64,000 nucleotides of DNA from a virus, in the IMG/VR virus record IMGVR_UViG_3300042197_003344, positions 1 to 64,000 of that record; one strand, written 5' to 3'. Below, one piece after another: positions 39,638-62,780 of the stretch. The notes below the pieces were generated by a model. The model saw only the letters and a program-made list of their open reading frames with translations. It had not been told where the DNA came from and searched no databases. The translations under genes and the position numbers were made by a program. The first letter of the stretch is position 1. Every line of letters begins with the position of its first letter.

Positions 39638-39648
39638 AAACAATGTAT

Positions 39649-39677
39649 ATTATGTATTCTTTGTTGACAAATGTCAA
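39649..39677 (-). promoter_or_regulatory. Sigma70-type promoter inside the tRNA array
   Basis: Minus-strand TTGACA (39672-39677), 17 bases, CATAAT (39649-39654). It would restart transcription ahead of tRNA-Leu(TAG). Confidence 0.6.
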
Positions 39678-39685
39678 CTATATTC

Positions 39686-39757
39686 TGGCGCCTCTGGAGA
39701 GATTCGAACTCCCATAACCTGGTTTAGAAGACCTGGCACCGCTCCATCGGCAGAGGC
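39686..39757 (-). tRNA. tRNA-Arg (TCT)
   Basis: Anticodon loop CTTCTAA; the stem CAGGT/ACCAG has one mismatch. T-arm GGGAG-TTCGAAT-CTCTC, encoded GCCA. Confidence 0.9.
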
Positions 39758-39762
39758 GTGTT

Positions 39763-39839
39763 TGGTACGGATGGTGGGATTCGAACCCACGAAACTCAGA
39801 TTTTAAGTCTGATACGTATACCTATTCCGTCACATCCGT
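39763..39839 (-). tRNA. tRNA-Leu (TAA)
   Basis: Anticodon arm TCAGA-CTTAAAA-TCTGA, encoded ACCA. The variable region is short for a Leu tRNA. Confidence 0.88.
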
Positions 39840-39842
39840 ATA

Positions 39843-39918
39843 TGGTGCCAACTCCTGGGATCGAACCAGGTTCTACCGCTCTTCAGGCGGCTGCAATGAC
39901 CACATTTGCTAAGTTGGC
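39843..39918 (-). tRNA. tRNA-Phe (GAA)
   Basis: Anticodon arm GCCGC-CTGAAGA-GCGGT, encoded ACCA. Confidence 0.95.
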
Positions 39919-39923
39919 ATATT

Positions 39924-39997
39924 TGGGGTGAAGCCGGGAATCGAACCCTGCCTTACTGTTTCACAGACAGCCGTGCAACCATTACACTAGCAACACC
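39924..39997 (-). tRNA. tRNA-His (GTG)
   Basis: Anticodon arm GCTGT-CTGTGAA-ACAGT. An extra 5' G faces discriminator C, the His identity signature. Two mismatches lie in the acceptor stem. Confidence 0.88.
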
Positions 39998-40012
39998 ATT
40001 GATGGTATCGTC

Positions 40013-40198
40013 TTATTTTGCAGGTTCTTTAATTCTTTCAATTTTCTCTAATGCATCGCGACGCATTTTAAATTCACGATGCTCATTCGGACGATGAACT
40101 ATGATGTATTCTACACCATCAATGTTTTCGGTCACACGGATATCGTCACAGACAAAACGCTCATTATTAAAACGATTTTTAAGCATAGTTGCTTTCAT
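40013..40198 (-). CDS. Small hypothetical protein, 61 aa
   Basis: A strong AAGGAGATTGTT-ATG context supports translation although the gene sits between tRNA genes. Starts MKATMLKNRFNNERFVCDD and has a beta-prone centre (VEYIIVHRPNEHREFKMRRD) and a charged helical end. No family recognised. Confidence 0.75.
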   Translation of the reverse strand: MKATMLKNRFNNERFVCDDIRVTENIDGVEYIIVHRPNEHREFKMRRDALEKIERIKEPAK

Positions 40199-40214
40199 AA
40201 CAATCTCCTTGAAA

Positions 40215-40289
40215 TGGCCGGTCCGGAGAGATTCGAACTCCCGACTGCTGGTTTCGAAGACCAGAACTCTTCCACTGAGCTACGGACCG
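40215..40289 (-). tRNA. tRNA-Arg (TCG)
   Basis: Anticodon arm CTGGT-CTTCGAA-ACCAG, acceptor CGGTCCG, encoded GCCA. Confidence 0.95.
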
Positions 40290-40294
40290 GTGTA

Positions 40295-40368
40295 TGGTGC
40301 TCTAGACAAGAATTGAACTTGTGATTCTGTCTTACCAAGACAGTGTTATACCACTTAACTACAAGAGC
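40295..40368 (-). tRNA. tRNA-Thr (GGT)
   Basis: Anticodon arm CTGTC-TTGGTAA-GACAG, T-loop TTCAATT, encoded ACCA. Confidence 0.93.
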
Positions 40369-40369
40369 T

Positions 40370-40443
40370 TGGCAGGCGTGCTAGGGCTCGAACCTAGAAT
40401 AACAGAGTCAAAGTCTGTGGTGTTACCATTACACTACACGCCA
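40370..40443 (-). tRNA. tRNA-Gln (TTG)
   Basis: Anticodon arm ACAGA-CTTTGAC-TCTGT, T-arm CTAGG-TTCGAGC-CCTAG, encoded GCCA. The first acceptor pair is open. Confidence 0.92.
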
Positions 40444-40447
40444 ACAG

Positions 40448-40690
40448 TTATAGATCTTTAGCGTCCACACAGGTGCCGCCTTTGAACACATAGACATCGC
40501 TGTCTAATCTTAGTTGTTCAAAAACGTGATTATTTACACACTTGTAAGGATCTTTGCGATTTTGTACTAGGTAGACTGCTCCGAAACCTAGGCCTGCAAG
40601 GATCATTAGAATTGGAATGTATTTCAGGTACTTTACTAGTTCTGGCATCGCAGCTAATATCTGCGGCAGATTTTTCAGTAGCTCTTTCAT
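40448..40690 (-). CDS. Small membrane protein
   Basis: 80 aa from ATG 40690 (MKELLKNLPQILA). The longer frame to 40735 would run into tRNA-Met, so the internal start is preferred. One transmembrane segment (YIPILMILAGLGFGAVYLV) is followed by a Cys-containing tail (YKCVNNHVF, GGTCVDAKDL). Function unknown. Confidence 0.65.
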   Translation of the reverse strand: MKELLKNLPQILAAMPELVKYLKYIPILMILAGLGFGAVYLVQNRKDPYKCVNNHVFEQLRLDSDVYVFKGGTCVDAKDL

Positions 40691-40705
40691 ACACTTATTT
40701 AAGTC

Positions 40706-40780
40706 TGGTGGTAATGGAAAGAGTTGAACTTTCACTGGGCACCGTATGAAGGTGTTGCACTACCATTATGCTACATTACC
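40706..40780 (-). tRNA. tRNA with CAT anticodon (elongator Met or Ile2)
   Basis: Anticodon arm ACACC-TTCATAC-GGTGC, acceptor GGTAATG, encoded ACCA. Standard acceptor pairing excludes an initiator. It could be elongator Met or, if lysidine-modified, Ile for AUA. Confidence 0.9.
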
Positions 40781-40866
40781 ATATAGAAACACACTTATGC
40801 CTTTTTCCTAGAAGGTGGCCTTTCCCAGTACTCTAACTATGTTTGGAGTTAAGTGTGTTTTTATAT
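40781..40866. other. 17-bp stem hairpin between tRNA genes
   Basis: ATATAGAAACACACTTA (40781-40797) pairs with TAAGTGTGTTTTTATAT (40850-40866) with one G-U pair, enclosing 52 bases. No T-tract. A processing stem or small RNA is possible. Confidence 0.5.
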
Positions 40867-40940
40867 GGTAGGAGCACAGGGATTTGAACCCTGGACCAAC
40901 GGATTAAAAGTCCGCTGCTCTACCGCTGAGCTATACTCCC
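40866..40940 (-). tRNA. tRNA-Lys (TTT)
   Basis: Anticodon arm GCGGA-CTTTTAA-TCCGT, T-arm CAGGG-TTCAAAT-CCCTG, encoded ACCA. Confidence 0.95.
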
Positions 40941-40999
40941 ATATAGTCCGTATTAAGTTGATTTACTGTGCCAACCTGGACCATACGGGATTCCAGGCG

Positions 41000-41040
41000 A
41001 CACTAAGGTTTACCTCGCTTCATGTCTTTCTCCTTAGTGT
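41000..41040 (-). promoter_or_regulatory. Hairpin with a six-codon leader-like ORF
   Basis: A 9-bp inverted repeat (ACACTAAGG at 41000-41008 / CCTTAGTGT at 41032-41040) lies just after the promoter at 41045. On the minus strand its 5' arm contains a Shine-Dalgarno (AAGGAG) followed by ATG (41023) and the frame MKRGKP-stop. Could be a leader or attenuator controlling the downstream tRNA-Lys transcript. Speculative. Confidence 0.35.
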
Positions 41041-41044
41041 TTGT

Positions 41045-41073
41045 ATTATATGTTCACTTCAATGTTTTGTCAA
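41045..41073 (-). promoter_or_regulatory. Consensus sigma70-type promoter inside the tRNA array
   Basis: Minus-strand TTGACA (41068-41073), 17 bases, TATAAT (41045-41050). It lies ahead of the leader-like hairpin and tRNA-Lys. Confidence 0.85.
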
Positions 41074-41140
41074 TCCAAATCAACCCTATGATAACCAAAA
41101 TAATAACTGCGACCGCCCCATTTTGTTTTCTCCTTATAGT

Positions 41141-41215
41141 TGGTAGCCTATCTTGGGAACGATCCAAGGACCCCCGCCTTATCAAGACGGTGCTCTACCA
41201 CTGAGCTAATAGGCT
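41141..41215 (-). tRNA. tRNA-Ile (GAT)
   Basis: Anticodon arm CCGTC-TTGATAA-GGCGG, encoded ACCA. Confidence 0.92.
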
Positions 41216-41220
41216 ATATT

Positions 41221-41310
41221 TGGTGGAAGCGGTGAGATTCGAACTCACGGACCCTTTCGGATCGTCTGTTTTCAAGACAGGTGCATTCAGCCAGGCTCTG
41301 CCACACTTCC
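41221..41310 (-). tRNA. tRNA-Ser (TGA)
   Basis: Class II tRNA with variable arm GATCC-GAAA-GGGTC, anticodon loop CTTGAAA, encoded ACCA. Confidence 0.95.
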
Positions 41311-41318
41311 ATAATCTT

Positions 41319-41396
41319 TGGTACCCCTCGTCGGATTCGAACCGACACGATTCTCCTTTTGAGAGAGACGCCTCATACCAATTGGGCTAGAGGGGC
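41319..41396 (-). tRNA. tRNA-Leu (CAA)
   Basis: Anticodon arm TCTCT-CTCAAAA-GGAGA, encoded ACCA. Short variable region for a Leu tRNA. Confidence 0.88.
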
Positions 41397-41400
41397 ATAC

Positions 41401-41478
41401 TGGAGCACAGGGTGAGATTTGAACTCACGGTTTTAGGGATTTGCAGTCCCTTGCATTGGGCCACTCTGCCACCTGTGC
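41401..41478 (-). tRNA. tRNA-Cys (GCA)
   Basis: Anticodon arm AGGGA-CTGCAAA-TCCCT, discriminator T as usual for Cys, encoded CCA. Confidence 0.95.
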
Positions 41479-41484
41479 ATTGTT

Positions 41485-41558
41485 TGGCGTACCCTGAGGG
41501 ATTTGAACCCCCACCGACAGTTTTGGAGACTGTAATGCTGCCGTTACACTAAGGATAC
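41485..41558 (-). tRNA. tRNA-Trp (CCA)
   Basis: Anticodon arm ACAGT-CTCCAAA-ACTGT, discriminator G, encoded CCA. Confidence 0.95.
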
Positions 41559-41562
41559 ATAT

Positions 41563-41661
41563 TGGTGCCTCTGGCAGGACTCGAACCTGCACACGCCGGC
41601 TTATCTGGCCGGTGCTTTGACGAGGTATAAGCTCGTTTCTTTACCATTAAGCTACAGAGGC
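41563..41661 (-). tRNA. Unusual 99-nt tRNA with two anticodon-like arms (Ile TAT or GAT)
   Basis: Acceptor GCCTCTG/CAGAGGC, a good T-arm and CCA. Two stem-loops occupy the middle: ACGAG-CTTATAC-CTCGT (anticodon TAT) and CCGGC-CAGATAA-GCCGG (GAT position, but position 33 is A instead of T). Removing 24 bases bounded by AAAG repeats gives a regular class I tRNA using the second arm. Otherwise it is an Ile(TAT) tRNA with a 29-nt variable arm. Confidence 0.7.
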
Positions 41662-41667
41662 AAAACT

Positions 41668-41743
41668 TGGAGCGGGTGAACAGTCTCGAACTGTCGACCT
41701 TAACTTTGGCAAAGTTACGCTCTACCAACTGAGCTACACCCGC
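41668..41743 (-). tRNA. tRNA-Gly (GCC), second copy
   Basis: Anticodon arm TAACT-TTGCCAA-AGTTA, encoded TCCA. Differs in D and T arms from the copy at 36362. Confidence 0.95.
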
Positions 41744-41744
41744 A

Positions 41745-41819
41745 TGGTACACGGTACGAGAATCGAACTCGTCTTTCCGCCTTGAAAGGGCAGCGTCCTT
41801 ACCGATAGACGAACCGTGC
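41745..41819 (-). tRNA. tRNA-Glu (TTC)
   Basis: Anticodon arm CTGCC-CTTTCAA-GGCGG, T-arm ACGAG-TTCGATT-CTCGT, encoded ACCA. Confidence 0.94.
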
Positions 41820-41825
41820 ATTATT

Positions 41826-41900
41826 TGGCTCCGAGAGTAGGGATCGAACCTACGACCAATTGGTTAACAGCCAACTGCACTACCGCTGTGCTATCTCGGA
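41826..41900 (-). tRNA. tRNA-Asn (GTT)
   Basis: Anticodon arm GTTGG-CTGTTAA-CCAAT, acceptor TCCGAGA/TCTCGGA, encoded GCCA. Confidence 0.95.
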
Positions 41901-41909
41901 ATAAAACTT

Positions 41910-41984
41910 TGGCGGTCCCAGGGGGTAACGATCCCCCTCCTTCGGCGTGACAAGCCGGTATGCGTCCATGAACACCTTGAGACC
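41910..41984 (-). tRNA. tRNA-Asp (GTC)
   Basis: Anticodon loop TTGTCAC in a CGGC/GCCG stem, T-arm GGGGG-ATCGTTA-CCCCC with an atypical T-loop, encoded GCCA. Slightly irregular. Confidence 0.85.
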
Positions 41985-50678: not shown

Positions 50679-52739
50679 TCATTTTTCGTGAGCGATAAAT
50701 TCGCCATTCCAGTCAGGACCTAGATCTTGCTGTTTCATAAAGTCACAGCGTTCAATCCACATCTTGTAATACTTGTCCATCTGGCCGTCGAAGGAACCTT
50801 TTAATTCTCCGCAGAGAATTTTAGCCGCATCAAATTGTTTTTCTTTGTATAGTTGATGCATCTTATTGTGTGTTTCCAGTGACTTATAGTAGGCTGTTTC
50901 ATTGCCTCTGATTCTTAGCACAGTGTAGATGCTGTCCGCTACTGTCTTGCCTTTTGGTTGTAGGTTATCCAAGTATAGGTAGAAGAAATCGTTGGCTGTT
51001 CTATTGTATGTTTCTGCTCCGATGATGGCCAACACACCATAGGCCTTACAACGTGCTTCTAGTCGTGCAGCAGTTGAAACCATATCGCCTAAGATATCAT
51101 ATCCGTGCCTAGCAGTCGAACCCATCTCACCAATATATCCATCACCGGTATTGCAACCCCAGCCCATCGCGGCAGGAGGTAAGCCTAGTGCTTCTTTTTC
51201 TTTAGTAAACGTCTGCACAGCATCTAACATTTCTAAACCAACTTTGACGATAGTATGAGCATGATTGGGATCATCCAACGGAGCACCATGCATGTGCATA
51301 CTAGCATCGCCTACATACTTGATGACCATACCGTTGGCATTGATGATAGGAATAGTAATAGCATCCATGTAGCCGTTCATATATTTGGCTAGTCCTTCTG
51401 GTCCACCATTACCTGGTTTATCAAAGTGTTCCCCAATTGGGGTGAATCCACGTAGATCGCTGAACATAACTGATACATCTTTTTTAACACCTTTCTTGAT
51501 TAAATCTGGATTCTCTTGTAACAGTCTCACGACTTCTGGAGAACAATAGCCAGCGAACTGTTTCTTTATGGCCTGCTTCTGTAAGAACTCTGAGACGAAC
51601 TTGATACCGTAGGCATGCAGAGCGACCAAGAGTAGGCCAACTGCAGGGGCAGTAGCGTCAAGTAACCATAGATTGAAATCGAACATAAGCCAACTGCCAA
51701 CAGCACTACCAGCCACGATAATAATCGTTGTTGCCAAACCTGCATACACATACCTCGTTAAGAAAATTAATAATACACCCGCCACTGCCAGTATTAAAAT
51801 TTCAAGACCATCTGCATAGTCGGGTCTTTGTATAGTAACACCGTTAAACATAGTACCTAGCACAGCGGCCTGTACTTCGTGCGGCCAAACACTACCCACT
51901 GCTGTGGGCACAGGATTACCTAACCCTGCTGCTGCTACTCCCACTATTACCACAGCACCCCCAAAATCTTTTGGTAGTTCTGTCATCGACACACTTTTAG
52001 ATTGTTGGCTCCAGTCAATCCACACACGACCTAGATTGTCTGTGCTGATAGGACCAAACTTGGGTATACGCATTTTTTCTACGCCGTTGTCGTTCAATTT
52101 AATTTGAACAGTTGAATCCTGTGCCGCCACACGCAGAGCTTCCATGGCCAAGCTAGGATATATCTTACCGTCTACAGCTACCAATAAAGGCATCCTACGA
52201 TTAACACCATCCACTTCTGGTAGAGTATTGACTACGCCCACGCCAGCAGCCTTTTGTTCTATGCTAGCGATATTGGCCATGATACCAGGATATTGAATTA
52301 TTCTATCCTGATAGTCTGATCCTATGACTGCGGTTCCTGGTTGCTTTGCTTCGTTTTTATTTCTATCCGCAGGCATATTAGGCAGTATCACAGGGTACCT
52401 AGACAGTGTGTCTGCTAGAGCTCGATCTCCGCCTTGTCTATCCTTTTCTGTCATCAGCACATTGAAAACCACTAGCCCAGCATTTCTTAGATAAAGATTT
52501 TCTATAAGTGCTGCATATATTTCACGGTTAAATGGCCATTGTCCGTATTTGTCTAGAGCATTTTCATCTATGTTTACCGTGACAATGTTATTTTCTGTGG
52601 GAATTTTGTTGACTATGAGTGTGTCAAAATATCTTAATCTTATACTTTCTACAAAGACAGGATCGGCTATTCTTATACTTACTATAAGTGCCAATGTTAT
52701 AATAGCAGTCCAAGGACTTAAGAGTATTTTTTTCATCAT
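50679..52739 (-). CDS. CHASE2-domain class III adenylate/guanylate cyclase
   Basis: 686 aa. An N-terminal transmembrane helix and extracellular CHASE2 sensor (residues ~25-300; RLRYFDTLI, GYGQWPF-like FDKYGQWPFNREIY) are followed by two to three transmembrane helices (~310-385). A cyclase domain (~420-600) has metal-binding Asp in MFSDLRGFTP and VIKYVGDASMHMHG, then GDMVSTAARLEA. The Lys and Asp positions favour ATP. The usual transition-state Asn (VNxAxR) is Ser. It would make cAMP in response to a periplasmic signal. A late-type box lies 4 bases upstream. Confidence 0.92.
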   Translation of the reverse strand: MMKKILLSPWTAIITLALIVSIRIADPVFVESIRLRYFDTLIVNKIPTENNIVTVNIDENALDKYGQWPFNREIYAALIENLYLRNAGLVVFNVLMTEKDRQGGDRALADTLSRYPVILPNMPADRNKNEAKQPGTAVIGSDYQDRIIQYPGIMANIASIEQKAAGVGVVNTLPEVDGVNRRMPLLVAVDGKIYPSLAMEALRVAAQDSTVQIKLNDNGVEKMRIPKFGPISTDNLGRVWIDWSQQSKSVSMTELPKDFGGAVVIVGVAAAGLGNPVPTAVGSVWPHEVQAAVLGTMFNGVTIQRPDYADGLEILILAVAGVLLIFLTRYVYAGLATTIIIVAGSAVGSWLMFDFNLWLLDATAPAVGLLLVALHAYGIKFVSEFLQKQAIKKQFAGYCSPEVVRLLQENPDLIKKGVKKDVSVMFSDLRGFTPIGEHFDKPGNGGPEGLAKYMNGYMDAITIPIINANGMVIKYVGDASMHMHGAPLDDPNHAHTIVKVGLEMLDAVQTFTKEKEALGLPPAAMGWGCNTGDGYIGEMGSTARHGYDILGDMVSTAARLEARCKAYGVLAIIGAETYNRTANDFFYLYLDNLQPKGKTVADSIYTVLRIRGNETAYYKSLETHNKMHQLYKEKQFDAAKILCGELKGSFDGQMDKYYKMWIERCDFMKQQDLGPDWNGEFIAHEK

Positions 52740-52775: not shown

Positions 52776-53069
52776 TTAAATCTTCTCAAAAATAAATTTA
52801 GAATTGTTGCCCACTCCAAGGATACAGGCAAACTCTTTATTACTTTTTAAAAGAGTCCAGCTGTTGCCCTTGAGATCAACCCATAGACTGTATACTGAGC
52901 CGTCATTATCGTGGTTTCCGGCCCAACTTAGTTTTTCTTGATAATTTTTATTTAGACTCTCTATCACTGTTTGTGTGGAATCACACAATACAGGGTAATC
53001 ATATCTAAATTGAGCGTTGGCTATAGAGCTAGTTAGGCAGAATAGGAACGCCACGGAATACAGACGCAT
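52776..53069 (-). CDS. Small secreted/periplasmic protein, 97 aa
   Basis: Signal peptide MRLYSVAFLFCLTSSIANA, then YDYPVLCDSTQTVIESL and a beta-rich tail with a second Cys (ACILGVGNNSKFIFE). Two Cys in a mature periplasmic protein suggest a disulphide. AAGGAG precedes the start. Function unknown; lies between the cyclase and the curli proteins. Confidence 0.75.
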   Translation of the reverse strand: MRLYSVAFLFCLTSSIANAQFRYDYPVLCDSTQTVIESLNKNYQEKLSWAGNHDNDGSVYSLWVDLKGNSWTLLKSNKEFACILGVGNNSKFIFEKI

Positions 53070-53087: not shown

Positions 53088-53336
53088 CTATTTATTTTTG
53101 AATCTGTCTTTGATCAACATACCTGCATATGTTCCTGAAAATGCCCCCATCAGTGCAGGTATAAGAGCCATGTTATCTTGTGTATAATTTATTACAGCAA
53201 CACTGGCAGTGAATGTTACAAATGCTGACCAGAAACTGGCAGTTAGCGGTTTGTTGTTTTGAATAGAATTCACAAAACATACATAGATTATATCTGTTAC
53301 AAAAATTGCAAGAAACGTGATCAGATAAGTCAGCAT
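53088..53336 (-). CDS. Small membrane protein, 82 aa
   Basis: The start is set at ATG 53336 (MLTYLITFLAIFV), which overlaps the stop of the 45-aa gene upstream. Three hydrophobic segments (LITFLAIFVTDIIYVCFV; SFWSAFVTFTASVAVI; LIPALMGAFSGTYAGMLI). Unknown role. Confidence 0.7.
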   Translation of the reverse strand: MLTYLITFLAIFVTDIIYVCFVNSIQNNKPLTASFWSAFVTFTASVAVINYTQDNMALIPALMGAFSGTYAGMLIKDRFKNK

Positions 53337-53473
53337 CAATTTTGTTGCTTATCCTGCTTTTCTGTCTGTACCTGTGGAACAGGTTCGGGAGGCCATACTC
53401 GGTCCTTGATATAACTAGCACCAAACCAACCCCAGGCAGAAAAGAATCCCCACATCATTATTTCTAATATCAT
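53336..53473 (-). CDS. Tiny membrane-anchored protein, 45 aa
   Basis: ATG 53473 with AAGGAC upstream. Encodes MILEIMMWGFFSAWGWFGAS..., one Trp-rich hydrophobic helix followed by a Pro/Gln/Lys tail. Stop overlaps the next start (TGATG). A late-type box lies at 53498-53503. Confidence 0.65.
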   Translation of the reverse strand: MILEIMMWGFFSAWGWFGASYIKDRVWPPEPVPQVQTEKQDKQQN

Positions 53474-53512
53474 AGCTTGTCCTTAAAAAAACACAGCTAT
53501 TTAGTGAGAGAA

Positions 53513-55192
53513 TTATTGCCCCTGTGTTACAGTGATTGCAGCGCAGCTGATCTGGGCGCAGTTGTAATTGATTGAATAATGCTGCTGAGTGCTACCAGAT
53601 TGTGATGTTGTGATAGAAGTAGTTCCGCCACTTAGTGTTATATTGGCCATGTGTGCAGCACTTCCGCTCTGTGTTAGATTGACAGTTTTATTTCCGCCGC
53701 TTAGATTAATTTCTGAATAGTGATTACCGCTGCCGCTTTGATTTATAGTTAGACTATTAGCTGTATTATCGATAGTAGCCATTATTCCTTTGGTACCTCC
53801 GGTACTGCTCTGTGTAAGATTTACAGTATTAGAACTGCCTATAACATCTAGTTCTATATAGTTTGTAGCACTGGCACTGGTACTGGTTTGTGTAGTATTG
53901 GTTGTATTATTGCTTCCGCTGACATAAATTTCACTATAGTTATTTTTTGTTCCGCTTTGTATAACCGTAGCAGAATTATTGTTACCTATTTGTGTAATGA
54001 TAACCTTAGTATCCTGTAGTGGTCTGTTCTGGAATGTTGTAACTCTATTAGTAAATTGTGTGTCAGCATTAAACGGTGCATTAGTTCCACCGCAGCAGAA
54101 ACTGCCGGGATTAGACACTGAGCCGGAACCTGCGTCTGCAGATGTCGTTGCATTATTATAGTCATAGTAAAAAGTTATTTCTGCTATCTGCATCGAGTCG
54201 CAGTTTAATCCGCAACCATCTCCTGCTTTGGTTGTAGGGAAGAATATGTAGTAATAGATATATGATGTAGAATTGGTCACGGTGATCATTGCGCTGGTAT
54301 TATATCTACTGTCGCTGAGATTTAGATTACCGTCTTGTATCAGCGTCCAAGTAGTACCATTATTACTACCATATAATTTGTAACTGGTAGGATCTCTACC
54401 TGGAAAATCGTTGGCGGTGGTTAAAGTAAATCCTGTGACAATACGACCCTCATTTAATTTCACAGTCACTCCAGCATTGTACTTGTCAAAGTTTAGATAT
54501 TTGGTATAGGGGTTGTTGTCAAATGCGTTAGCGGCACCTTCGCCTGCAGGACTATTATTACTGGTAGGATAATGATTGGTGATCCAAACATTACTGCTGT
54601 TGTTGTAGATGGCAGTGGGCACAGGGCTAGGAGTAGAATTGCTGGGCGTTTGTGTGGCAGTTTGACCCTGACTTAGTGGTACAGTTGAGTAATTGGCATC
54701 AGCATAGGTGTTGGCCTGCGCTGTGGTGGGATTCAATGTGCCGGTCCAAGATACACCGGCTGTGTTGTTCATACCTGAACTGCCACTAAAAAGTTGACCG
54801 GTGTCGTTGTCGCTGCCTACGAAAAAGAAATAATCAGGACCCATATTGACGATTTTACCTAGGCCAATGGTTCCAGCCACACTTCCGTCGCTGTTGTAGA
54901 CTTTGCCTTCATAGGGAAAACTGGCATTGCCAGAAAGACTGAATTTCACATACTGTCCTGCTTGCCACGACCATTGTCCACTGGTCCAGGGTATCTTATA
55001 CATCACACCTGGATTCTTACTGTAGATCTGGCAGGTCGTGGTGTTCAAACAAGCACTTACATTCCATTGACTATCTGCTATCTGGTATCGACCAAATTGT
55101 ATATCTGTAAGAGCAGCCCAAGTCTTAGGGCTGAGAAGTATCAAAAGAAATAAGATGATGGCTGCATCAAGCCAAAGTTTAAATTTGTTCAT
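53513..55192 (-). CDS. Secreted discoidin-like and curlin-repeat protein
   Basis: 559 aa. An N-terminal hydrophobic signal (AAIILFLLILLSPKTWA) is followed by an aromatic beta domain. A discoidin/F5-8C-like domain spans ~200-350 (NNSPAGEGAANAFDNNPYTK; GSNNGTTWTLIQDG). The C-terminal repeats (IGNNNSATVIQSGTKNNYSE; GSSNTVNLTQSS; SGSGNHYSEINLSGG) fit the curlin pattern N-x5-Q-x-G-x2-N. It probably forms or decorates an extracellular amyloid-like fibre that can bind a surface glycan. Confidence 0.8.
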   Translation of the reverse strand: MNKFKLWLDAAIILFLLILLSPKTWAALTDIQFGRYQIADSQWNVSACLNTTTCQIYSKNPGVMYKIPWTSGQWSWQAGQYVKFSLSGNASFPYEGKVYNSDGSVAGTIGLGKIVNMGPDYFFFVGSDNDTGQLFSGSSGMNNTAGVSWTGTLNPTTAQANTYADANYSTVPLSQGQTATQTPSNSTPSPVPTAIYNNSSNVWITNHYPTSNNSPAGEGAANAFDNNPYTKYLNFDKYNAGVTVKLNEGRIVTGFTLTTANDFPGRDPTSYKLYGSNNGTTWTLIQDGNLNLSDSRYNTSAMITVTNSTSYIYYYIFFPTTKAGDGCGLNCDSMQIAEITFYYDYNNATTSADAGSGSVSNPGSFCCGGTNAPFNADTQFTNRVTTFQNRPLQDTKVIITQIGNNNSATVIQSGTKNNYSEIYVSGSNNTTNTTQTSTSASATNYIELDVIGSSNTVNLTQSSTGGTKGIMATIDNTANSLTINQSGSGNHYSEINLSGGNKTVNLTQSGSAAHMANITLSGGTTSITTSQSGSTQQHYSINYNCAQISCAAITVTQGQ

Positions 55193-56274
55193 CGGTTCCA
55201 GATCCTTACTGTTACTTTGTTAGATCCATCGCCTACTGTTTTAGTCTCAATATCGTTAGAATTAATAGAAATACTATAGGTAGTGTTGTCCATCTTTTCA
55301 CCACTTCTAATTACTATTGTATTGCCTCGATCGTCGTCTTTTCTATAATACCAATTTAGACCTTTTTCGTTGCCGCAGTCATTAAAAGGCCAACAGGGAT
55401 TAGACCTAGGGTCGCCTAATGCTCCGTTGGCTCCTGCGTTCAAACCTATTAACTTTGTTTCTTCATGGGCCTGTGCTAGTCTAGAGACCGCATTTTTATC
55501 ACTACTTTCTCTAGAGGTTTTCTTTTCATCATCATTGGTTCTGCTTTTATCCTTGTCTCGATCTTTTTTATCATCTCTTTCTGTTTCAGATTTTAGAATA
55601 GATTCGGGTTTTTTCAAGTTGCTGTCATTGCTTACAACTGCAGGATCAACCTTTACAGGTGGGAGTGGAGGTTGTTGCGCATCAGTAACATAAGTAGCGG
55701 TGTAGGCTTCTCTCAGCGATACGCTTCCTCCAAGAGTTTCAACTTCAATTGCACCCACAGTGCAATTTCCGGATATTTGTGTATGAGTTACTAATCTAGA
55801 TTCATCATCGCAACTAGGAAGTAAAACTACAAGACTTCTTCCTACTTCATCTACGGTCATGGCAAAATCGGTTCCTCTTACGGCAATAGATGCCGTAGGA
55901 GTTTTGATGTTAACATTTTGTGGATTATTTTTTGCTACCTGACCGCTGGCATACCTAACTGTACCTAGAGCAACTTTCATTCCTAGTTTTCCAGCGTCTT
56001 TGATATTTGGATCAAAGACAAAATCATCTATAACTAATCTTGAGTTTTCTGTGATTTTTACTTTGGTATTATCTATAAATGTAATGCCTGTGCTAGTTTT
56101 TGAACCAACTATAACAGTATCCATCGATTCAACGATGCTTTTATCTTGTGCTTTGATTGATTGATTTTTTCTTTTTATTTCAATGGCTGTGCCCTGGAGT
56201 TCAGTCAAATTTCCTATGTTTGCTTGAACTCCAGTGCAAAATAACATGCTGACAAGCAGCCATACCGTTTTCAT
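55189..56274 (-). CDS. FecR-domain secreted protein
   Basis: 361 aa. Signal peptide (WLLVSMLFCTGVQANIG), then a FecR-like core: ITENSRLVIDDFVFDPN and VALGTVRYASGQVAKNN, then TPTASIAVRGTDFAMTV, the hallmark end of the FecR domain. After ~190 the protein is charged and low-complexity (ETERDDKKDRDKDKSRTNDD) with a C-terminal beta segment. In bacteria FecR domains occur in surface regulators. Overlaps both curlin-like genes by 1-4 bases. Confidence 0.85.
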   Translation of the reverse strand: MKTVWLLVSMLFCTGVQANIGNLTELQGTAIEIKRKNQSIKAQDKSIVESMDTVIVGSKTSTGITFIDNTKVKITENSRLVIDDFVFDPNIKDAGKLGMKVALGTVRYASGQVAKNNPQNVNIKTPTASIAVRGTDFAMTVDEVGRSLVVLLPSCDDESRLVTHTQISGNCTVGAIEVETLGGSVSLREAYTATYVTDAQQPPLPPVKVDPAVVSNDSNLKKPESILKSETERDDKKDRDKDKSRTNDDEKKTSRESSDKNAVSRLAQAHEETKLIGLNAGANGALGDPRSNPCWPFNDCGNEKGLNWYYRKDDDRGNTIVIRSGEKMDNTTYSISINSNDIETKTVGDGSNKVTVRIWNR

Positions 56275-56957
56275 TAATTACCTGTAGAAACGTTTACATT
56301 GTTACTGTTGCCATTGGTTGTAATATTCACTGTTGTATTAACAGTTCCGGACTGAGTCACAGTATGTGTGTTAGAAGTTCCTGTCACACTGGCTACTAAT
56401 GTATGTCCGCTACCTGCACTGGCACCACTCATAGTTGAAGTAAATGTGTTAGAGTCTCCTAATATTGTAATCGTGCTAGAACTATTATTAGTTGTAATAG
56501 TTTGTGTTACAGTATTGCTGTCACCGGTAATATTTAAAAGATTACTAATATTTGATCCTTTAATAGTACTGGTAACAATATTAAGATCACCTGTAATATT
56601 CATAGTACTAGTGACATTAGTACAACCTGTTGTTCCGTCACCGCAAACAAAAGTAATCTGATTTGTATCACCGACAACAGTCTTGCTGATAGTATTGCTA
56701 CTACCTACTACTGTATAATCAATAATATTTCCGTCGCCAGTTTGTGATGCAGTTAGAGTATTTGTAGAACCTGTGATTTTACTTTGTTGATTTAATCCGC
56801 TGTTTCCTACTCTATTATTAGCACCTATTTGTGTTATCGTAACCGTGTTGGTTGATCCGACTTGTTCAATGTAAACCCCATTGTTTGCGTAGGCGCCTGA
56901 ACCCCAGAACACGGCCGCTATTACAAAGGCGAAACCACTTCTAGAATTTTTTAACAT
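56274..56957 (-). CDS. Curlin-like (CsgA/CsgB-type) repeat protein
   Basis: 227 aa. Signal peptide (GFAFVIAAVFWGSGAYA), then about eight imperfect repeats of the curlin type: GSTNTVTITQIGANNRVG, GSTNTLTASQTGDGNIID, GDSNTVTQTITTNNSSS, GTSNTHTVTQSGTVNT, GNSNNVNVSTGN. The Asn/Gln/Gly ladder and the Asn-rich C-terminus match curli subunits. It would be exported through CsgG and assemble outside the cell. Subunit versus nucleator cannot be told. Confidence 0.85.
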   Translation of the reverse strand: MLKNSRSGFAFVIAAVFWGSGAYANNGVYIEQVGSTNTVTITQIGANNRVGNSGLNQQSKITGSTNTLTASQTGDGNIIDYTVVGSSNTISKTVVGDTNQITFVCGDGTTGCTNVTSTMNITGDLNIVTSTIKGSNISNLLNITGDSNTVTQTITTNNSSSTITILGDSNTFTSTMSGASAGSGHTLVASVTGTSNTHTVTQSGTVNTTVNITTNGNSNNVNVSTGN

Positions 56958-57051
56958 TTTTCGCTCCTTGGTATTTTATTATACCTTGTTATTTTATTTT
57001 TAACTAATCTAAGCCTTACTTTTTGCCTGTGTATCTATAATCTTTATTTTC

Positions 57052-57978
57052 TCACTTTGTTCCAACTGCTTCTTGTCTCTCAACAGACTGCTCTTGTGGA
57101 GTTTCTGTTTTCGGGGTTTCCGAAGGTGCGGAGTTCGTTTGAACCAACTCATTTTTCTTCTCCTCGTTTTTTACAGCGACCGTTTCAGACTTAAAGGCCC
57201 AGTGTCCTTTTCTAACACCATCATTGATCATCTCGATAACAGCAGCATGAATGGCTAATTGTACTGCCTTGTTCATTGATTCGTTAGTTGCTGACCCTGT
57301 TTCTATTTCTAAAGCCTGTGTTCCTGCATCGTAAAATCTAAGAACTCCTAGTTTATCCATAAAACTAATAACTTTTTTATTAGTATTAACAACTACTAAG
57401 ACTTCTCCGGTAGCCACAGAAACTGCTCTTAAACTAACAGTTACTTCGTCTTGTTGATACTGTGTTGTAGCACCAATACCTAATAATCTAGCGCCACTAC
57501 CTCCGCTCATTGTATTAGAATCGTAGCCAATAATACCACCTTCTACAAGTATTCCAGCGAACAACATAGGAGGTAAAGGCTGTGCTTTATCTCCTTGATA
57601 AAGTTCTCTCATTTGACGAATTAACTGACGTTCTTTTACAAGATTATCTAATCCGCCTCTTTCTAAAACTTTGAACCATTTGCCGCTTCCAACATCTTGT
57701 AAACTTTTAACAAGATAAGCATCTGCACCTTGTGTGACAGCAGAACTAAGGCTAGCAATGACCTGGCTAGATTTTCTTTGTCCGGTCATATCCCTAAAAT
57801 TATAAACTGCTACAGTGATAGCGCCTGTAGAAGGTTCTGGAAGTTTTACTTCATTCTTAAGTTTAGGTGCGATGACTACAGGATCTTCAAAACTTCTTAC
57901 AGCATTTCCCATCGTTCCGCAACCTGCTAATAAAATAGCCAGTACTATAGGTGTTATTTTTGTTATGGTACTAGCCAT
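57052..57978 (-). CDS. csgG: CsgG-type outer-membrane curli secretion channel
   Basis: 308 aa. Lipoprotein signal with lipobox LLAGC, then TGAITVAVYNFRDMTGQRK, SSAVTQGADAYLVKSL, WFKVLERGGLDNLVKERQLI and DEVTVSLRAVSVATGEVLVVV, all characteristic CsgG blocks. Forms the nonameric outer-membrane pore that exports curlin. A low-complexity Glu/Pro tail of ~45 residues is added. Start overlaps the end of csgF by 16 bases. Confidence 0.95.
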   Translation of the reverse strand: MASTITKITPIVLAILLAGCGTMGNAVRSFEDPVVIAPKLKNEVKLPEPSTGAITVAVYNFRDMTGQRKSSQVIASLSSAVTQGADAYLVKSLQDVGSGKWFKVLERGGLDNLVKERQLIRQMRELYQGDKAQPLPPMLFAGILVEGGIIGYDSNTMSGGSGARLLGIGATTQYQQDEVTVSLRAVSVATGEVLVVVNTNKKVISFMDKLGVLRFYDAGTQALEIETGSATNESMNKAVQLAIHAAVIEMINDGVRKGHWAFKSETVAVKNEEKKNELVQTNSAPSETPKTETPQEQSVERQEAVGTK

Positions 57979-58421
57979 CCGAAGTCTCCTATTGGTACGG
58001 TCATCGTAGTAACATTACCGTTAGCATCTCTAATGGTTATTTCAATCATATTACCTGCTTTGGTGTATGTGATTGTTCCGCCATTGAATACAAATGTTCC
58101 GGTGGCTTGAGTTCCCTGGCCCTCAAATAATTTTTCAGTTATCTGTCTTGCTAGTTCATTGTAAACACGACTTTCTAAGTTTGCCACAAACTTGGCCATT
58201 GTGGTGTTTTTAGCATCGTTTTCTGCTTTCAATTCATCGGCTTTTTTCTCTGCGGCAATTGCAAGTTTTCGACTTAGTTCTTGACTGTAGATAGTTAAGG
58301 CATGACTTGAAAACCCAATGCCTGAAAAGGAAGGACTGTTGAATTGATGGACAAGTTCGGCAGCTTGTCCTGCTGTCGATAAGGATAAAAATATCCCTAA
58401 AGATACTAACGTTTTCTTCAT
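57963..58421 (-). CDS. csgF: CsgF-type curli assembly protein
   Basis: 152 aa. Signal peptide ending AGQAAELVHQ, then FNSPSFSGIGFSSHALTI, the conserved CsgF N-terminus that inserts into the CsgG constriction, and the C-terminal domain with TFVFNGGTITYTKAG. First gene of the curli block, followed directly by csgG. CsgG/CsgF pairs are known in marine T4-like phages, but fibre-like partners are not usual there. Confidence 0.95.
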   Translation of the reverse strand: MKKTLVSLGIFLSLSTAGQAAELVHQFNSPSFSGIGFSSHALTIYSQELSRKLAIAAEKKADELKAENDAKNTTMAKFVANLESRVYNELARQITEKLFEGQGTQATGTFVFNGGTITYTKAGNMIEITIRDANGNVTTMTVPIGDFGWLVP

Positions 58422-60033: not shown

Positions 60034-60714
60034 TCAGATTTCTGGGAATAGACAATCCTGTATAAACACCCTAACATCCTCTTCAGAAAGGCCTAAACTG
60101 ACCATTACACGCGGTGTATGGGGGTTTTGCTTTTGATTTTGAGCATAGAAATTCTGTTCAAATGTAGTGTCTGCTACTTTATGGTTAGTTTCACCTACTG
60201 TTTCTATGTAATGGTTTATTAGTATGTGTGCTAGATTTTCTATTTGATTTAATTCGTGTTCATCACTGACATTTCCTGCAGCTATCATACTCGAACTGAA
60301 AATACGCTGTGCCCAATCAGGAAGATCGCGTTTTTTAATCCATTCATATCTGCTGACTTCTTCAGCAAAATATTCTATCATCGGATGATTTCGATCAGTT
60401 GTGGGACTGTAATCTATGAAACAGCCTGTGATCTTGTTTTTGCCTGCGATTACGTCAAAGCCAAATATGGGAGCCGGGTTATGGGTATGCGGAAAGACGC
60501 AGCAGTGCATCATCCAGAGACCCTTTGTGGATCGGGAATCGACTACATCGATATGGGCTCTGCGATAATTGCCGCTGCTCCAAACACGATTTACCCAACC
60601 CGACTGATTAAATCTTTCCATGCCAGGTTCAAAAGCTTCTACACCTGTTTCTGAAAATTTATTTTCTAGTAGCTGTTGTATTTCTATTAGGGTGTCCCAT
60701 ACTTTACTGTTCAA
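60034..60714 (-). CDS. pcyX: Ferredoxin-dependent bilin reductase, PcyX-like
   Basis: 226 aa. NYRRAHIDVVDSRSTKGLWM, CVFPHTHNPAPIFGFDVIAG and TGCFIDYSPT are characteristic of the FDBR family (PcyA/PebA/PebS/PcyX). It reduces biliverdin from heme oxygenase to a bilin pigment using reduced ferredoxin. PcyX-type enzymes are known from marine phages of non-photosynthetic hosts, always near heme oxygenase as here (61179). The symbol is tentative within the family. Confidence 0.88.
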   Translation of the reverse strand: MNSKVWDTLIEIQQLLENKFSETGVEAFEPGMERFNQSGWVNRVWSSGNYRRAHIDVVDSRSTKGLWMMHCCVFPHTHNPAPIFGFDVIAGKNKITGCFIDYSPTTDRNHPMIEYFAEEVSRYEWIKKRDLPDWAQRIFSSSMIAAGNVSDEHELNQIENLAHILINHYIETVGETNHKVADTTFEQNFYAQNQKQNPHTPRVMVSLGLSEEDVRVFIQDCLFPEI

Positions 60715-61198
60715 GTGGTTCTCCTTGATCGTTCACTTCGATCCAAGTGTAGTCTCCCAACCATTTTACTCTGCAGATATATTCATACCAATCTGGTGCT
60801 CCGGTACTCCAGTCATTAGGACCATGAAGTGTAAGAAGTGTACCACCTTTTCTATTATCATATGCTAACCAATATATCTGTCCGTGGTAGGTTTGAAATT
60901 GATATTTGGCCGCGTGGACTAGATCTGTAATCTCTAATCTACGTTTTATGCTGGCTGCTTGTTTTTGGAGCACAGCCACCAACTCCATTATGCGATTATA
61001 CTCTTGTTGCCCGTGCATACGAGCAACATTGACCATTATATCTTTTTGTTTTTCGACAGGTATAAGATCAAATGCTGGACCGCCAACTTCGGTTGGATAA
61101 GGGGTAACGTTTCTATTAAAAAATTGTACGAGAGAATCACCGACTTGACTGTCGTAACTGTCCTTGCCTTTGGCTCGATTACTTTTGTGATCCGTCAT
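60704..61198 (-). CDS. DUF2452 family protein
   Basis: 164 aa. VTPYPTEVGGPAFDLIPVE, QQEYNRIMELVAVLQKQA and YWLAYDNRKGGTLLTLHGPNDW match the DUF2452 pattern. Function unknown. Sits between heme oxygenase and the bilin reductase with overlaps (20 and 11 bases), so it may belong to bilin synthesis. Confidence 0.8.
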   Translation of the reverse strand: MTDHKSNRAKGKDSYDSQVGDSLVQFFNRNVTPYPTEVGGPAFDLIPVEKQKDIMVNVARMHGQQEYNRIMELVAVLQKQAASIKRRLEITDLVHAAKYQFQTYHGQIYWLAYDNRKGGTLLTLHGPNDWSTGAPDWYEYICRVKWLGDYTWIEVNDQGEPLEQ

Positions 61199-61727
61199 TT
61201 AGGTCTTTCATAATTCGGATAGCCCATTCAAAGGCTACGCGAGCTTCGTCGCCTAAATCATCTGTTAGTTCTGCACGAATCTGTTCTTTAAGTTTTTCCG
61301 GATCTTTAAATTTGTAAAAACGACCTTGGCCAGGTACACGTTTAGCTATCATCTGACCTCCGTACAGGTCGCCCATATGTCGACAGTAAAGATGTGCTTT
61401 GATTAAATTCTTTCTTTCTGGATCATTGGATAGTTCTAGTAGATAATTATGATACTCGATAGTAGAAGGTAACCATTTAAAATTATGATCTTTGCCTGCT
61501 AGTTCAATAAAATCTTGATAAATCGGCCAGGCTCTTTCTATATCCGGTAGGTTAGTGAAATTGCCTAGTATTTTGTTACCCATTTCAATAGGTTGATAAA
61601 TCAAAACCATTTGCCATAGATAGTTGGCATAATCTTCTTTGGATATAGATCCGCTTAGAAGTTTCTTAGCGAATTCTGTGCGTTCTGCATCTGAATGCAA
61701 GTCTTTGGTTATTTCTCGTAAGCTCAT
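61179..61727 (-). CDS. Heme oxygenase
   Basis: 182 aa. TKDLHSDAERTEFAKKLLSG carries the proximal heme His, and CRHMGDLYGGQMIAKR is the distal-helix GxxxGG motif. It opens heme to biliverdin, releasing iron and CO, and feeds the adjacent bilin reductase. A TAAATA box lies 7 bases before the ATG. Confidence 0.93.
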   Translation of the reverse strand: MSLREITKDLHSDAERTEFAKKLLSGSISKEDYANYLWQMVLIYQPIEMGNKILGNFTNLPDIERAWPIYQDFIELAGKDHNFKWLPSTIEYHNYLLELSNDPERKNLIKAHLYCRHMGDLYGGQMIAKRVPGQGRFYKFKDPEKLKEQIRAELTDDLGDEARVAFEWAIRIMKDLNDGSQK

Positions 61728-61740: not shown

Positions 61741-62004
61741 CACTTTAGAAATTTTCAATAACAATAATAAGAGATCTTTTTCGTTGTCAAATTTAATGAA
61801 AAAGGTGTTTCCGTTATTTTTTTGATATTGCCATTTAGCACCTAATTTTCCGAAGGACTGTTCTATTGTTTTGATAAAATCCAATCTACCTAATCTTCCT
61901 AAAGTAGCTGCCGGAGTTCTGTAATCTTTGATCAACGCCCAATGTCCAAATCTTTTCGATCCCACATTTTGATAAGAAACTATTTTGTAATTTTCTTGTA
62001 TCAT
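61738..62004 (-). CDS. Small hypothetical protein, 88 aa
   Basis: Starts MIQENYKIVSYQNVGSKRFG and ends NTFFIKFDNEKDLLLLLLKI. The aromatic strand plus acidic turn plus hydrophobic end loosely resembles the LRW-family small proteins at 45.7-47.3 kb. Overlaps the end of clpS by 4 bases. Confidence 0.65.
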   Translation of the reverse strand: MIQENYKIVSYQNVGSKRFGHWALIKDYRTPAATLGRLGRLDFIKTIEQSFGKLGAKWQYQKNNGNTFFIKFDNEKDLLLLLLKISKV

Positions 62005-62300
62005 TCTCTTTCTAAATTAATCTGTAACGGAAAACCGTTCAGTCTAGAAAGTTTAGTTGATTCTACTGATTTATGTTCAGCGATTTCATAATTGAAAACC
62101 CCTACTACAGCAGAACCTGTGTTATGGATTTCTAAGGTAAGATCCTTGGCCACATCTTCTTTGTGTTTGAAAATCGATGTCAAAAGTTCGATGACAAATT
62201 CCATTGGAGTTTGGTCATCATTTAAAAAAACCACTTTCCATAAAGAAGGAGGTTGTAAATTAACTTTAACTTTTTCTTCTGTTTTGATTTCTGTGCTCAT
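62001..62300 (-). CDS. clpS: ClpS adaptor
   Basis: 99 aa. LWKVVFLNDDQTPMEFVIEL (NDDxTPMEFV motif), then IHNTGSAVVGVFNYEIAEHK. ClpS binds N-degrons and delivers them to ClpA(P). A phage ClpP-like protease is at 43158. Known in other T4-like aquatic phages. Confidence 0.93.
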   Translation of the reverse strand: MSTEIKTEEKVKVNLQPPSLWKVVFLNDDQTPMEFVIELLTSIFKHKEDVAKDLTLEIHNTGSAVVGVFNYEIAEHKSVESTKLSRLNGFPLQINLERE

Positions 62301-62316
62301 TCGATGCTCCGGTATC

Positions 62317-62338
62317 AGTGGGGGATTTCTCCCCCACT
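62317..62338. other. GC-rich tetraloop hairpin between hsp20 and clpS
   Basis: AGTGGGGGA-TTTC-TCCCCCACT (minus-strand loop GAAA), a 9-bp stem. No T-tract on the minus strand, so it may be an RNA stability or processing element rather than a terminator. Confidence 0.55.
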
Positions 62339-62342
62339 ATTA

Positions 62343-62780
62343 TTACTTAACCTCTACGATATCGATTACTTTAGGTTTGGCAGACTCTGGAATATTTCTT
62401 GTCAATTTAATAGACAGCATTCCGTTTTGTGTCTCTGCACCTACTACTTCGATATGTTCAGCCAAAGGAAATTCTTTGCAGAAATCTCTGGTAGCCAGTC
62501 CTCGATGTAGATATACGATTTCTGCACTTTCGTTCGGTGTTTCGCTTTCTCCTTTAACGATTAATACATTATCCTCTACAGTTACTGAAATTTCTTCTTT
62601 CTTAAATCCGGTAACAGCAATCTGGATTTCGTATTGATTCTCGCCAGTTTTGAGAATGTTATGTGGTGGGTAGTTATTGGATACACTATTAGCGAAGCGT
62701 CGTTCCATTTGATCGAACATCGTGTCGAAACCAATAAGTGCTCTGTTGATAGCATCAAGTCTTGCTAGTGCGTTATTCAT
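62343..62780 (-). CDS. hsp20: Small heat-shock protein (Hsp20/IbpA type)
   Basis: 145 aa. An alpha-crystallin domain spans about 40-130: YEIQIAVTGFKKEEISVTVE, VKGESE, LHRGLATRDFCKEFPL and NGMLSIKLTRNIPE. AAGGAGATC precedes the ATG. A holdase chaperone common in T4-like aquatic phages. Confidence 0.93.
   Translation of the reverse strand: MNNALARLDAINRALIGFDTMFDQMERRFANSVSNNYPPHNILKTGENQYEIQIAVTGFKKEEISVTVEDNVLIVKGESETPNESAEIVYLHRGLATRDFCKEFPLAEHIEVVGAETQNGMLSIKLTRNIPESAKPKVIDIVEVK

Follow-up and report, generated by a model that had tools for sequence, protein, structure and literature searches.

Why should a virus carry a gene set that seems suited to building a curli-like fibre, and what would such a fibre bind? 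The question is raised by a 64,000-nt stretch of viral DNA (the window; positions 1 to 64,000 of IMG/VR record IMGVR_UViG_3300042197_003344), in which six genes on the minus strand form a module: csgF, csgG, a first curlin-repeat gene (curlin1), a gene for a FecR-domain protein, a second curlin-repeat gene (curlin2) and a gene for a CHASE2 class III nucleotide cyclase. The csgF product (57963..58421; PF10614, E 9.7e-19; phrog_35372) is predicted to be a chaperone for the curli pore in the outer membrane, with 40% identity to CsgF of phage HTVC008M and 39% to that of Methylophilales phage Melnitz. The adjacent csgG (57052..57978; PF03783, E 7.9e-52) encodes the predicted outer-membrane secretion pore, with 46% and 44% identity to its counterparts in HTVC008M and Melnitz, respectively, and a lipobox-like LAGC is seen by eye close to the N-terminus of its translation. 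Directly after csgG lies curlin1 (56274..56957), a predicted CsgA/B-like fibre subunit with a PF07012 repeat over the cut-off and no extra head; its product has a signal-peptide-like start (by eye) and has matches in the curlins of Melnitz and HTVC008M. Downstream follow the FecR-domain gene (55189..56274; PF04773, E 8e-09; signal-peptide-like start by eye), curlin2 (53513..55192; PF00754 (F5/8C), E 2e-09; signal-peptide-like start) and the cyclase gene (50679..52739; PF05226, E 9.5e-40; PF00211, E 3.8e-15). Two small minus-strand ORFs between curlin2 and the cyclase gene, of 83 aa (53088..53339) and 97 aa (52776..53069, with a signal-peptide-like start), have no Pfam match at E <= 0.001 and are candidate module members only. 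Just upstream of csgF are two ORFs, one matching DUF3307 and the other without a convincing Pfam match. A D-Ala-D-Ala peptidase gene is found just downstream of the cyclase gene.

The locus is the type VIII secretion module published for pelagiphages. A set of csgF, csgG, CsgA/B, FecR, second CsgA/B and adenylate cyclase genes has been described in pelagiphages (PMC9599517), and the six-gene order is identical in HTVC008M (NC_020484), Melnitz (MZ577097) and 107 of the 191 IMG/VR loci that we fetched, a non-random sample made up of the best 80 for FecR, for which 547 viral stretches were confirmed, the best 80 for CsgG and 31 for curlin2, with several contigs caught repeatedly. The first-pass annotation of this DNA had grouped csgF, csgG, two curlin-repeat proteins, one of them also bearing a discoidin domain, and a FecR protein, and both Pfam and the recurrence in the two isolates bear this out; its left edge fell short and missed the cyclase gene. 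It had also stated that csgGF alone occurs in some marine T4-like phages, which understates prior knowledge, since all six genes are present in HTVC008M and Melnitz and have been described in PMC9599517. The candidate fibre subunits that it took to go beyond the known are present but already in print, while the sugar-binding type of partner is indeed unusual. The roles that it listed can likewise be found in the literature: aggregation (PMC7029224), superinfection defence (PMC9599517) and pore-linked release (PMC9004378). Canonical curli systems also have csgE and csgD. A csgE gene, which the annotation had suggested looking for elsewhere in the genome, gave no match in the 77,298-base record holding the window (possibly a fragment), although the same search detects E. 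coli csgE. Genes and order are those of the published module, and no csgE was found on either side.

Other curli systems differ in their surroundings. Podophage curli modules in print have a histidine kinase upstream of csgF, whereas Pfam identified none in the two ORFs at that place in the window. Bacterial curli operons contain CsgF, CsgG and curlin-repeat proteins. In nine curlin-repeat stretches from eight alphaproteobacterial genomes (some contigs short), csgG was found in three, no FecR or cyclase profile matched within the stretch, and the curlin ORFs listed had no recognisable head (by eye, small sample). The module also turns up in large IMG/VR records (202-372 kb) bearing a T4-type capsid gene, as seen in 7 of the 9 searched records of at least 200 kb; a limited literature search found no report of a jumbo phage with curli.

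The whole-protein curlin-repeat scores are weak, at 20.3 bits for curlin1 and 19.8 bits for curlin2 against a Pfam cut-off of 20.7, and a repeat-by-repeat search placed 2 of 6 curlin matches over the cut-off, one in each protein. We regard the repeats as above chance because the same arrangement, with repeats in the same places, is found again in HTVC008M and Melnitz, whose records carry curlin-associated annotations at the corresponding positions, and because the AlphaFold2 (AF2) model of curlin2 shows successive strands over residues 394-557. Canonical curli are functional amyloid fibres of CsgA/CsgB-like subunits; the window's curlins, with their repeats and predicted strands, may form such a fibre. 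The window's curlin2 consists of a head domain A (~30-165, no Pfam name), a discoidin/CBM32-like head domain B (~190-345), a linker and a curlin tail (~376-559). Residues ~190-349 adopt in the model a galactose-binding/CBM32 fold (best Z 19.1, 14.8 at row 50, CBM32 entries about 15-16), and PF00754 scores over its own cut-off, so that family and fold agree on CBM32/F5/8C. The domain is of a sugar-binding type and may bind a sugar. It shares its fold with other CBM32/F5/8C galactose-binding domains, here fused to a curlin tail, and the protein as a whole has no relative in phage records at E 1e-5. HTVC008M has a PA14 head on its curlin2 and Melnitz has none; the curlin2 of the window bears two head domains, one of them the discoidin.

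A survey of related modules shows that curlin2 combines a conserved curlin tail of ~190 aa with an exchangeable N-terminal head. The 105 distinct curlin2 proteins span 91-806 aa, against a 5th-95th percentile of 225-294 aa for curlin1 (190 ORFs, duplicates included). Pfam finds F5_F8_type_C_2 in 26 of the 105, F5/8C in 24, PA14 in 9 and GLEYA in 4. The heads, modelled with the curlin tail excluded, are discoidin/CBM32-like, PA14, weakly CBM_4_9-like or unassigned domains, single or combined; five kinds (A, D, F, G and N) are without a Pfam assignment, so "glycan-binding" fits only part of the set. In 25 of the 105 no head reaches 60 aa, and in 15 of 20 viral loci where FecR and cyclase were called but curlin2 was not, no ORF of at least 60 aa lies between the two. 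The head, and even curlin2, is therefore not essential. The curlin2 scan was seeded with a discoidin-bearing protein; setting aside loci from that scan, isolates and genome loci leaves 86 proteins, of which 22 are headless, and the range of head types is unchanged. A few proteins, those of loci L146 and L148 among them, were called curlin1 by the model and stand outside the 105.

Head exchange is seen between close relatives. Six of the 18 clusters of near-identical modules (CsgG at least 85% identical) hold more than one head state, three with different heads and three with head versus none. The 12 differing pairs (6 head versus other head, 6 head versus none) have median identities of 95.5% for csgF, 97.1% for csgG, 95.6% for curlin1 and 90.8% for FecR, against 63.3% for the curlin2 tail and 11.4% for the head; as the tails also diverge, some exchanges replace more than the head. 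Pair counts vary with the rule: 42 pairs, 12 differing, at CsgG identity of at least 85% over the longer protein, and 44 pairs, 17 differing, at 90% or more over aligned residues. At the DNA level, loci L065 and L072 are 96.6% identical up to 12 bases into curlin2, do not match over the head and then continue at 92.5%, and L146 and L148 are 97.9% identical over 12 kb, differ in the head and resume at 94.6%. The window and locus L006 may instead illustrate transfer of a block rather than of a head, given that csgF to FecR is conserved at 97% against flanks of about 76-81%. On a quick CsgG + FecR tree of 96 loci we counted at least 37 head-state changes, where 13 would suffice if each of the 14 states present ("none" and "unassigned" counted) had arisen once. 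All near-identical pairs come from metagenome contigs, and the differences could in principle be assembly chimeras or gene-calling errors. This is extremely unlikely: each side of the swap between L064/L065 and L059/L072 occurs in two contigs, under four different metagenome numbers, the breakpoints of several unrelated pairs lie at or close to the start of curlin2, and the same kind of difference separates the isolates HTVC008M (PA14) and Melnitz (no head). A diversity-generating retroelement as the source of the changes is unsupported, with no reverse-transcriptase match in the record. A tail protein in the record carries an Mtd_N domain. We concluded that the curlin2 head belongs to a set of interchangeable heads. 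The six-gene curli set in ocean phages was already known, and the exchangeable heads are new as far as our literature search reached; the accessible part of PMC9599517 holds no mention of head exchange for the pelagiphage module.

These observations bear on the proposal, made for Melnitz from CsgG/CsgF models and gene neighbours (PMC9004378), that CsgG and CsgF time lysis as a pinholin- or secretin-like pore, with the curlin genes as passengers. The peptidase gene next to the window's cyclase gene would suit such a release device. Passengers, however, would hardly be expected to be the site of domain exchange, and 178 of the 187 fetched viral loci with csgG (obtained via FecR, CsgG or curlin2) also have curlin1 and FecR. 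Melnitz was said to be without csgA/csgB (PMC9004378), contrary to its record, which annotates two curlin-repeat proteins. We thus consider a lysis function improbable. Against an adhesive fibre, no clumping was observed in Melnitz cultures (PMC9004378), though the Melnitz curlin2 is headless.

The FecR protein and the cyclase are the remaining parts of the module. In its AF2 model the FecR protein has a FecR domain, a long helix, a disordered linker and C-terminal strands, five of them in the tail; the match to PF04773 and the fold, which matches the PupR signalling domain (Z 16.1), both identify the FecR domain. FecR anti-sigma regulators have a cytoplasmic N-terminal domain and a neighbouring sigma factor gene. 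A role as a classical iron-citrate anti-sigma regulator was rejected, as PF04773 is the protein's only match at E <= 1 and both flanking genes are curlin genes. That the tail resembles a curlin repeat in relatives is moderately supported. Tails of 129 relatives compared with curlin2 tails gave an hhalign P of 1.4e-4 (probability 52%) and with curlin1 a P of 0.003 (probability 10.5%), versus P values of 0.15 to 1 for four control segments each compared with curlin1 and curlin2 tails. A tail pattern, written after the tails had been seen, fits 51 of the 129 (shuffles: mean 6.3, maximum 15). The Pfam curlin repeat is absent among the best 25 of 64 families listed for 101 FecR proteins, and the window's tail has no glutamine, while most relatives keep one near the end.

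The window cyclase is 45% identical to the Melnitz cyclase over 99% of its length. Class III cyclases have six catalytic columns: two metal Asp, a Lys/Asp specificity pair and an Asn/Arg transition-state pair. Five are conserved in the window protein and the Asn column is Ser, which makes its activity uncertain; among 94 cyclases this column is Ser in 44 and Asn in 50. In bacteria, a CHASE2 ORF lies within 3 kb of FecR in 34 of 80 loci (CHASE2 model, either strand) and in 31 of the 75 that have no curli gene at all; a rule of FecR-cyclase adjacency on the same strand within 1 kb gave 6 of the 76 loci without csgG. Chance proximity is put at about 1% or less, an estimate rather than a measurement, drawn from four genomes of 1.0-6.1 Mb that have 1, 1, 1 and 3 CHASE2 genes. 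A Burkholderia biofilm operon likewise places an exported protein, LysM-FecR, near a CHASE2 sensor, there a histidine kinase (PMC5192318); the phage pair differs from it in having a cyclase as output, FecR relatives with a curlin-like tail and a place inside a curli module. It has been suggested (PMC9599517; PMC7029224) that CsgG could be an uptake pore admitting nutrients, siderophores or cofactors, with FecR as iron regulator, and the lack of a match to the csgE gate in the 77,298-base record agrees with this. Such a pore would make the fibre subunits unnecessary, many bacterial FecR relatives are near CHASE2 sensors, and the phage protein matches PF04773 only, starts with a signal-peptide-like segment and neighbours curlins rather than a sigma factor; we regard uptake as very improbable.

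The account that we favour, and consider rather probable, is that the infected cell exports a curli-like fibre with an interchangeable, often glycan-binding adhesin, the FecR protein and CHASE2 cyclase being a sensor pair. Read from sequence, it builds on which genes are present and in what order, on heads that change while the curlin tail is conserved, on the predicted discoidin-head fold and on the bacterial FecR-CHASE2 neighbourhood. Export would proceed through the phage-encoded type VIII secretion module, with CsgG and CsgF as the outer-membrane exit and curlin1 as fibre subunit, and curlin2 would join the fibre via its curlin tail and display the exchangeable head. The exported FecR protein and the cyclase would report the state of the fibre or envelope as a cyclic nucleotide. 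The purpose may be host capture, in which the infected cell sticks to specific glycans of neighbouring cells; head exchange would then track host surface variation, like tail-fibre exchange. Since related phages swap the sugar-binding type of head on curlin2 for others, the fibre looks like a retargetable sticky arm. More tentatively, the curli pore might display a retargetable receptor-binding arm whose lectin-like heads are swapped between phages as a cassette at the curlin2 start, and the FecR protein, by way of its curlin-like tail, could form a third component associated with the fibre, from which the cyclase would learn of fibre assembly or binding. The same anatomy would serve a superinfection blocker, as proposed for pelagiphage curli (PMC9599517), in which fibre and head coat the cell or occupy its surface glycans, rivals cannot adsorb and heads follow rival receptors. 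This is somewhat unlikely in our view: curlins serve as subunits of a secreted fibre, and binding of the cell's own glycans is just one of the options for the head. The observations fit the capture of new hosts as well as the blocking of rival phages.

Pore, lysis, capture and exclusion have all been discussed in print as roles of phage curli. Domain exchange that centres on a single fibre protein's head suggests selection on the binding target of the fibre, and so points to adhesion. The adhesion reading would turn the role of phage curli into a testable question, namely which ligands the heads bind and whether module-bearing cells stick to new hosts.

The curli module is encoded on the window's minus strand, where csgF (57963-58421) comes first in transcription order and is followed by csgG (57052-57978), the first curlin-repeat gene, curlin1 (56274-56957), a FecR-domain gene (55189-56274), the second curlin-repeat gene, curlin2 (53513-55192), two small ORFs and, last, a CHASE2 cyclase gene (50679-52739). 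Several adjacent genes overlap, and no CsgE was found in a search of the 77,298-base parent virus record. An S11-family D-Ala-D-Ala peptidase gene (PF00768; 49805-50527, minus strand) sits directly downstream of the cyclase gene, and SxxK-, SDN- and KTG-like motifs can be read in its product by eye. This curli module is already known: the same six genes occur in identical order in the isolate phages HTVC008M and Melnitz, and PMC9599517 describes the module in pelagiphages, FecR and adenylate cyclase included. The pore genes are treated in the portions seen of PMC7029224 and PMC9004378. The latter states that csgA and csgB are missing from Melnitz; contrary to this, two proteins next to csgG are annotated as curlin-associated repeat proteins in its GenBank record (MZ577097, 46000-62000).

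In tblastn searches of 50,697 phage records, CsgG relatives were found in seven: HTVC008M (as two entries), Melnitz (as four isolates) and a 1.5-kb contig (OR851715.1) submitted under the name of a Salmonella phage and marked unverified. The CsgG relative in this contig is 45.5% identical to that of the window, and the contig may be environmental carry-over. FecR and curlin1 relatives were restricted to the six HTVC008M/Melnitz records, cyclase relatives to these six plus two weak partial matches, and the whole curlin2 protein had no relative at E 1e-5 in this set. The FecR profile matched at least 599 stretches in IMG/VR (at least 547 confirmed). Three scans supplied 191 loci, of which 107 carry exactly the six genes in one order; in most of the others, curlin2, the cyclase or both are missing from the stretch that was fetched. 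Of 36 records searched, 11 encode a member of the T4 major capsid family, including those of 372, 353, 289, 285, 280, 259 and 202 kb; it is absent from two others, of 229 and 213 kb, and from the window's own record. Phage-type modules were also seen in five contigs (L197-L200 and L270) from bins named Rhodobacteraceae (two), Flavobacteriaceae, Pirellulales and Candidatus Pelagibacter; these contigs may be viral.

Other genes of this virus include 29 tRNA genes with many anticodons (36284-41984, minus strand; ARAGORN, with 27 Rfam tRNA matches) and a long, tightly packed gene run (2609-32638) in which, of eight ORFs scanned, six encode radical SAM proteins and two of these six also a SPASM domain. 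On the minus strand at 60034-61727, genes for a ferredoxin-dependent bilin reductase (PF05996, E 1.9e-14) and a heme oxygenase (PF01126, E 2.5e-21) flank a DUF2452 gene and form a possible phage bilin-making pair. A stress/proteolysis row of ClpS, Hsp20 and DnaK (633 aa; Hsp70 E 5e-256) lies at 62001-62780 and at 1020-2921 (minus strand) of locus L005. A tail-fibre-like protein with an Mtd_N domain is encoded at 32660-34312 (minus strand); a search of the virus record for a reverse transcriptase gave no match.

What seems to be new is the set of exchangeable heads on curlin2. We surveyed 105 distinct curlin2 proteins (the window, two isolates, 100 viral loci and two genome-collection loci), in which the tail of ~190 aa is conserved and the region N-terminal to it is variable, with fewer than 60 aa ahead of the tail in 25 proteins. 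By local profiles, the head states are A+B (20, including the window), C (11), A (10), P (10), B (8), A+D (4), N (3), A+C (3), C+B (2), F (2), G (2) and A+P (1), and four proteins are unassigned; HTVC008M curlin2 is one of these four, but Pfam names PA14 in it. From one or two representatives per class, Pfam identifies B as discoidin and P as PA14-like, gives C a weak CBM_4_9 match (E 0.0035) and names none of A, D, F, G and N. Some B proteins, such as that of L006, have an additional unassigned region ahead of B. Leaving aside L146, L148 and the cut ORF of L090, head profiles match only two further ORFs in the fetched loci, both bacterial and both domain P. No head was seen in the bacterial curlin ORFs listed, and no FecR or cyclase profile matched there, in a small sample of nine curlin-repeat stretches from eight of 289 alphaproteobacterial genomes searched. 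Within the open-licence literature consulted (on curlin with discoidin or PA14, jumbo phage curli, and csgG/csgF in phage or as auxiliary metabolic genes), we found no report of heads or head swaps; the sections seen of PMC9636769, PMC7003362 and PMC7198788 name phage csgG or curli genes and do not mention heads, and the words PA14, carbohydrate, lectin and discoidin are absent from the main text of PMC9599517.

An AlphaFold2 model of curlin2 (window protein plus 51 viral relatives; mean pLDDT 83, pTM 0.45) shows a head of two compact domains; the linker at 365-373 is of low confidence, and from 394 to 557 one strand follows another. In fold searches the modelled discoidin part matches galactose-binding domains, CBM32 among them (Foldseek E as low as 1.4e-8; Z up to 19.1), and also SUN and APC10 domains; the prediction indicates a galactose-binding-type fold, which falls short of proof for sugar binding.

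Comparison between loci shows that the heads are exchanged. At least 37 head-state changes map onto a CsgG + FecR tree of 96 loci, and head state differs within 6 of 18 clusters of near-identical modules: in three of them the heads are unlike one another, and in the other three a head contrasts with no head. Over 12 differing pairs, median identities are 95.5 for csgF, 97.1 for csgG, 95.6 for curlin1, 90.8 for FecR, 63.3 for the curlin2 tail and 11.4 for the head, the last being trivially low in the six pairs that contrast a head with none. The clean cases are the DNA comparisons among metagenome contigs. L065 and L072 are 96.6% identical as far as 12 bases inside curlin2 and 92.5% again from the tail onward; L146 and L148 are 97.9% identical across 12 kb, differ in the head (domain B is present in L148 and absent in L146) and then continue at 94.6%. 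Between L058 and L052 the entire curlin2 is replaced within flanks of ~90%. L086, the window's twin with an identical curlin2 protein, matches L006 at 97.4% from csgF to FecR, stopping at the curlin2 start, and the next 600 bases are unmatched. Because the tail, cyclase and outer flanks of this pair are only ~76-81% identical, the ~97% identical csgF-FecR block (6937-10113 in L086, 6911-10087 in L006) may itself be the part transferred between the two viruses. If the pore served lysis, or alternatively uptake, the retained curlin genes, one of them a domain-exchange site, would not be accounted for.

The FecR and cyclase genes look like an older sensor pair. PF04773 matches at E <= 1 in all 101 FecR proteins scanned, and the N-termini of the window, HTVC008M and Melnitz proteins are signal-peptide-like by eye. 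The FecR model (74 sequences, pLDDT 82) shows the signalling-domain fold of the PupR type (Z 16.1) and matches 5ix9, whose solved structure is termed a 'cell surface anchoring domain', less strongly (Z 7.2). Behind a disordered linker, residues 307-358 form five strands; in relatives this FecR tail moderately resembles curlin repeats. A CHASE2 ORF lies within 3 kb in 34 of 80 bacterial loci found by the FecR profile; 75 of the 80 have no curli gene, and among these the count is 31, ten of them titled Pelagibacteraceae or Pelagibacter. This neighbourhood, together with a Burkholderia biofilm operon of LysM-FecR and CHASE2 kinase (PMC5192318), argues for the sensor pair and disfavours FecR as an iron regulator. 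Across 94 distinct cyclase proteins five of six catalytic columns are kept, apart from a gap at one of these columns in a single protein; at the sixth, the Asn column, 44 proteins have Ser, including that of the window, whose Ser form is a putative nucleotide cyclase.

Capture of neighbours and exclusion of rivals are both candidate benefits on the sequence evidence. We consider it reasonably probable that the module would have the infected cell export a fibre, and that the second subunit of this fibre would display an exchangeable adhesin.
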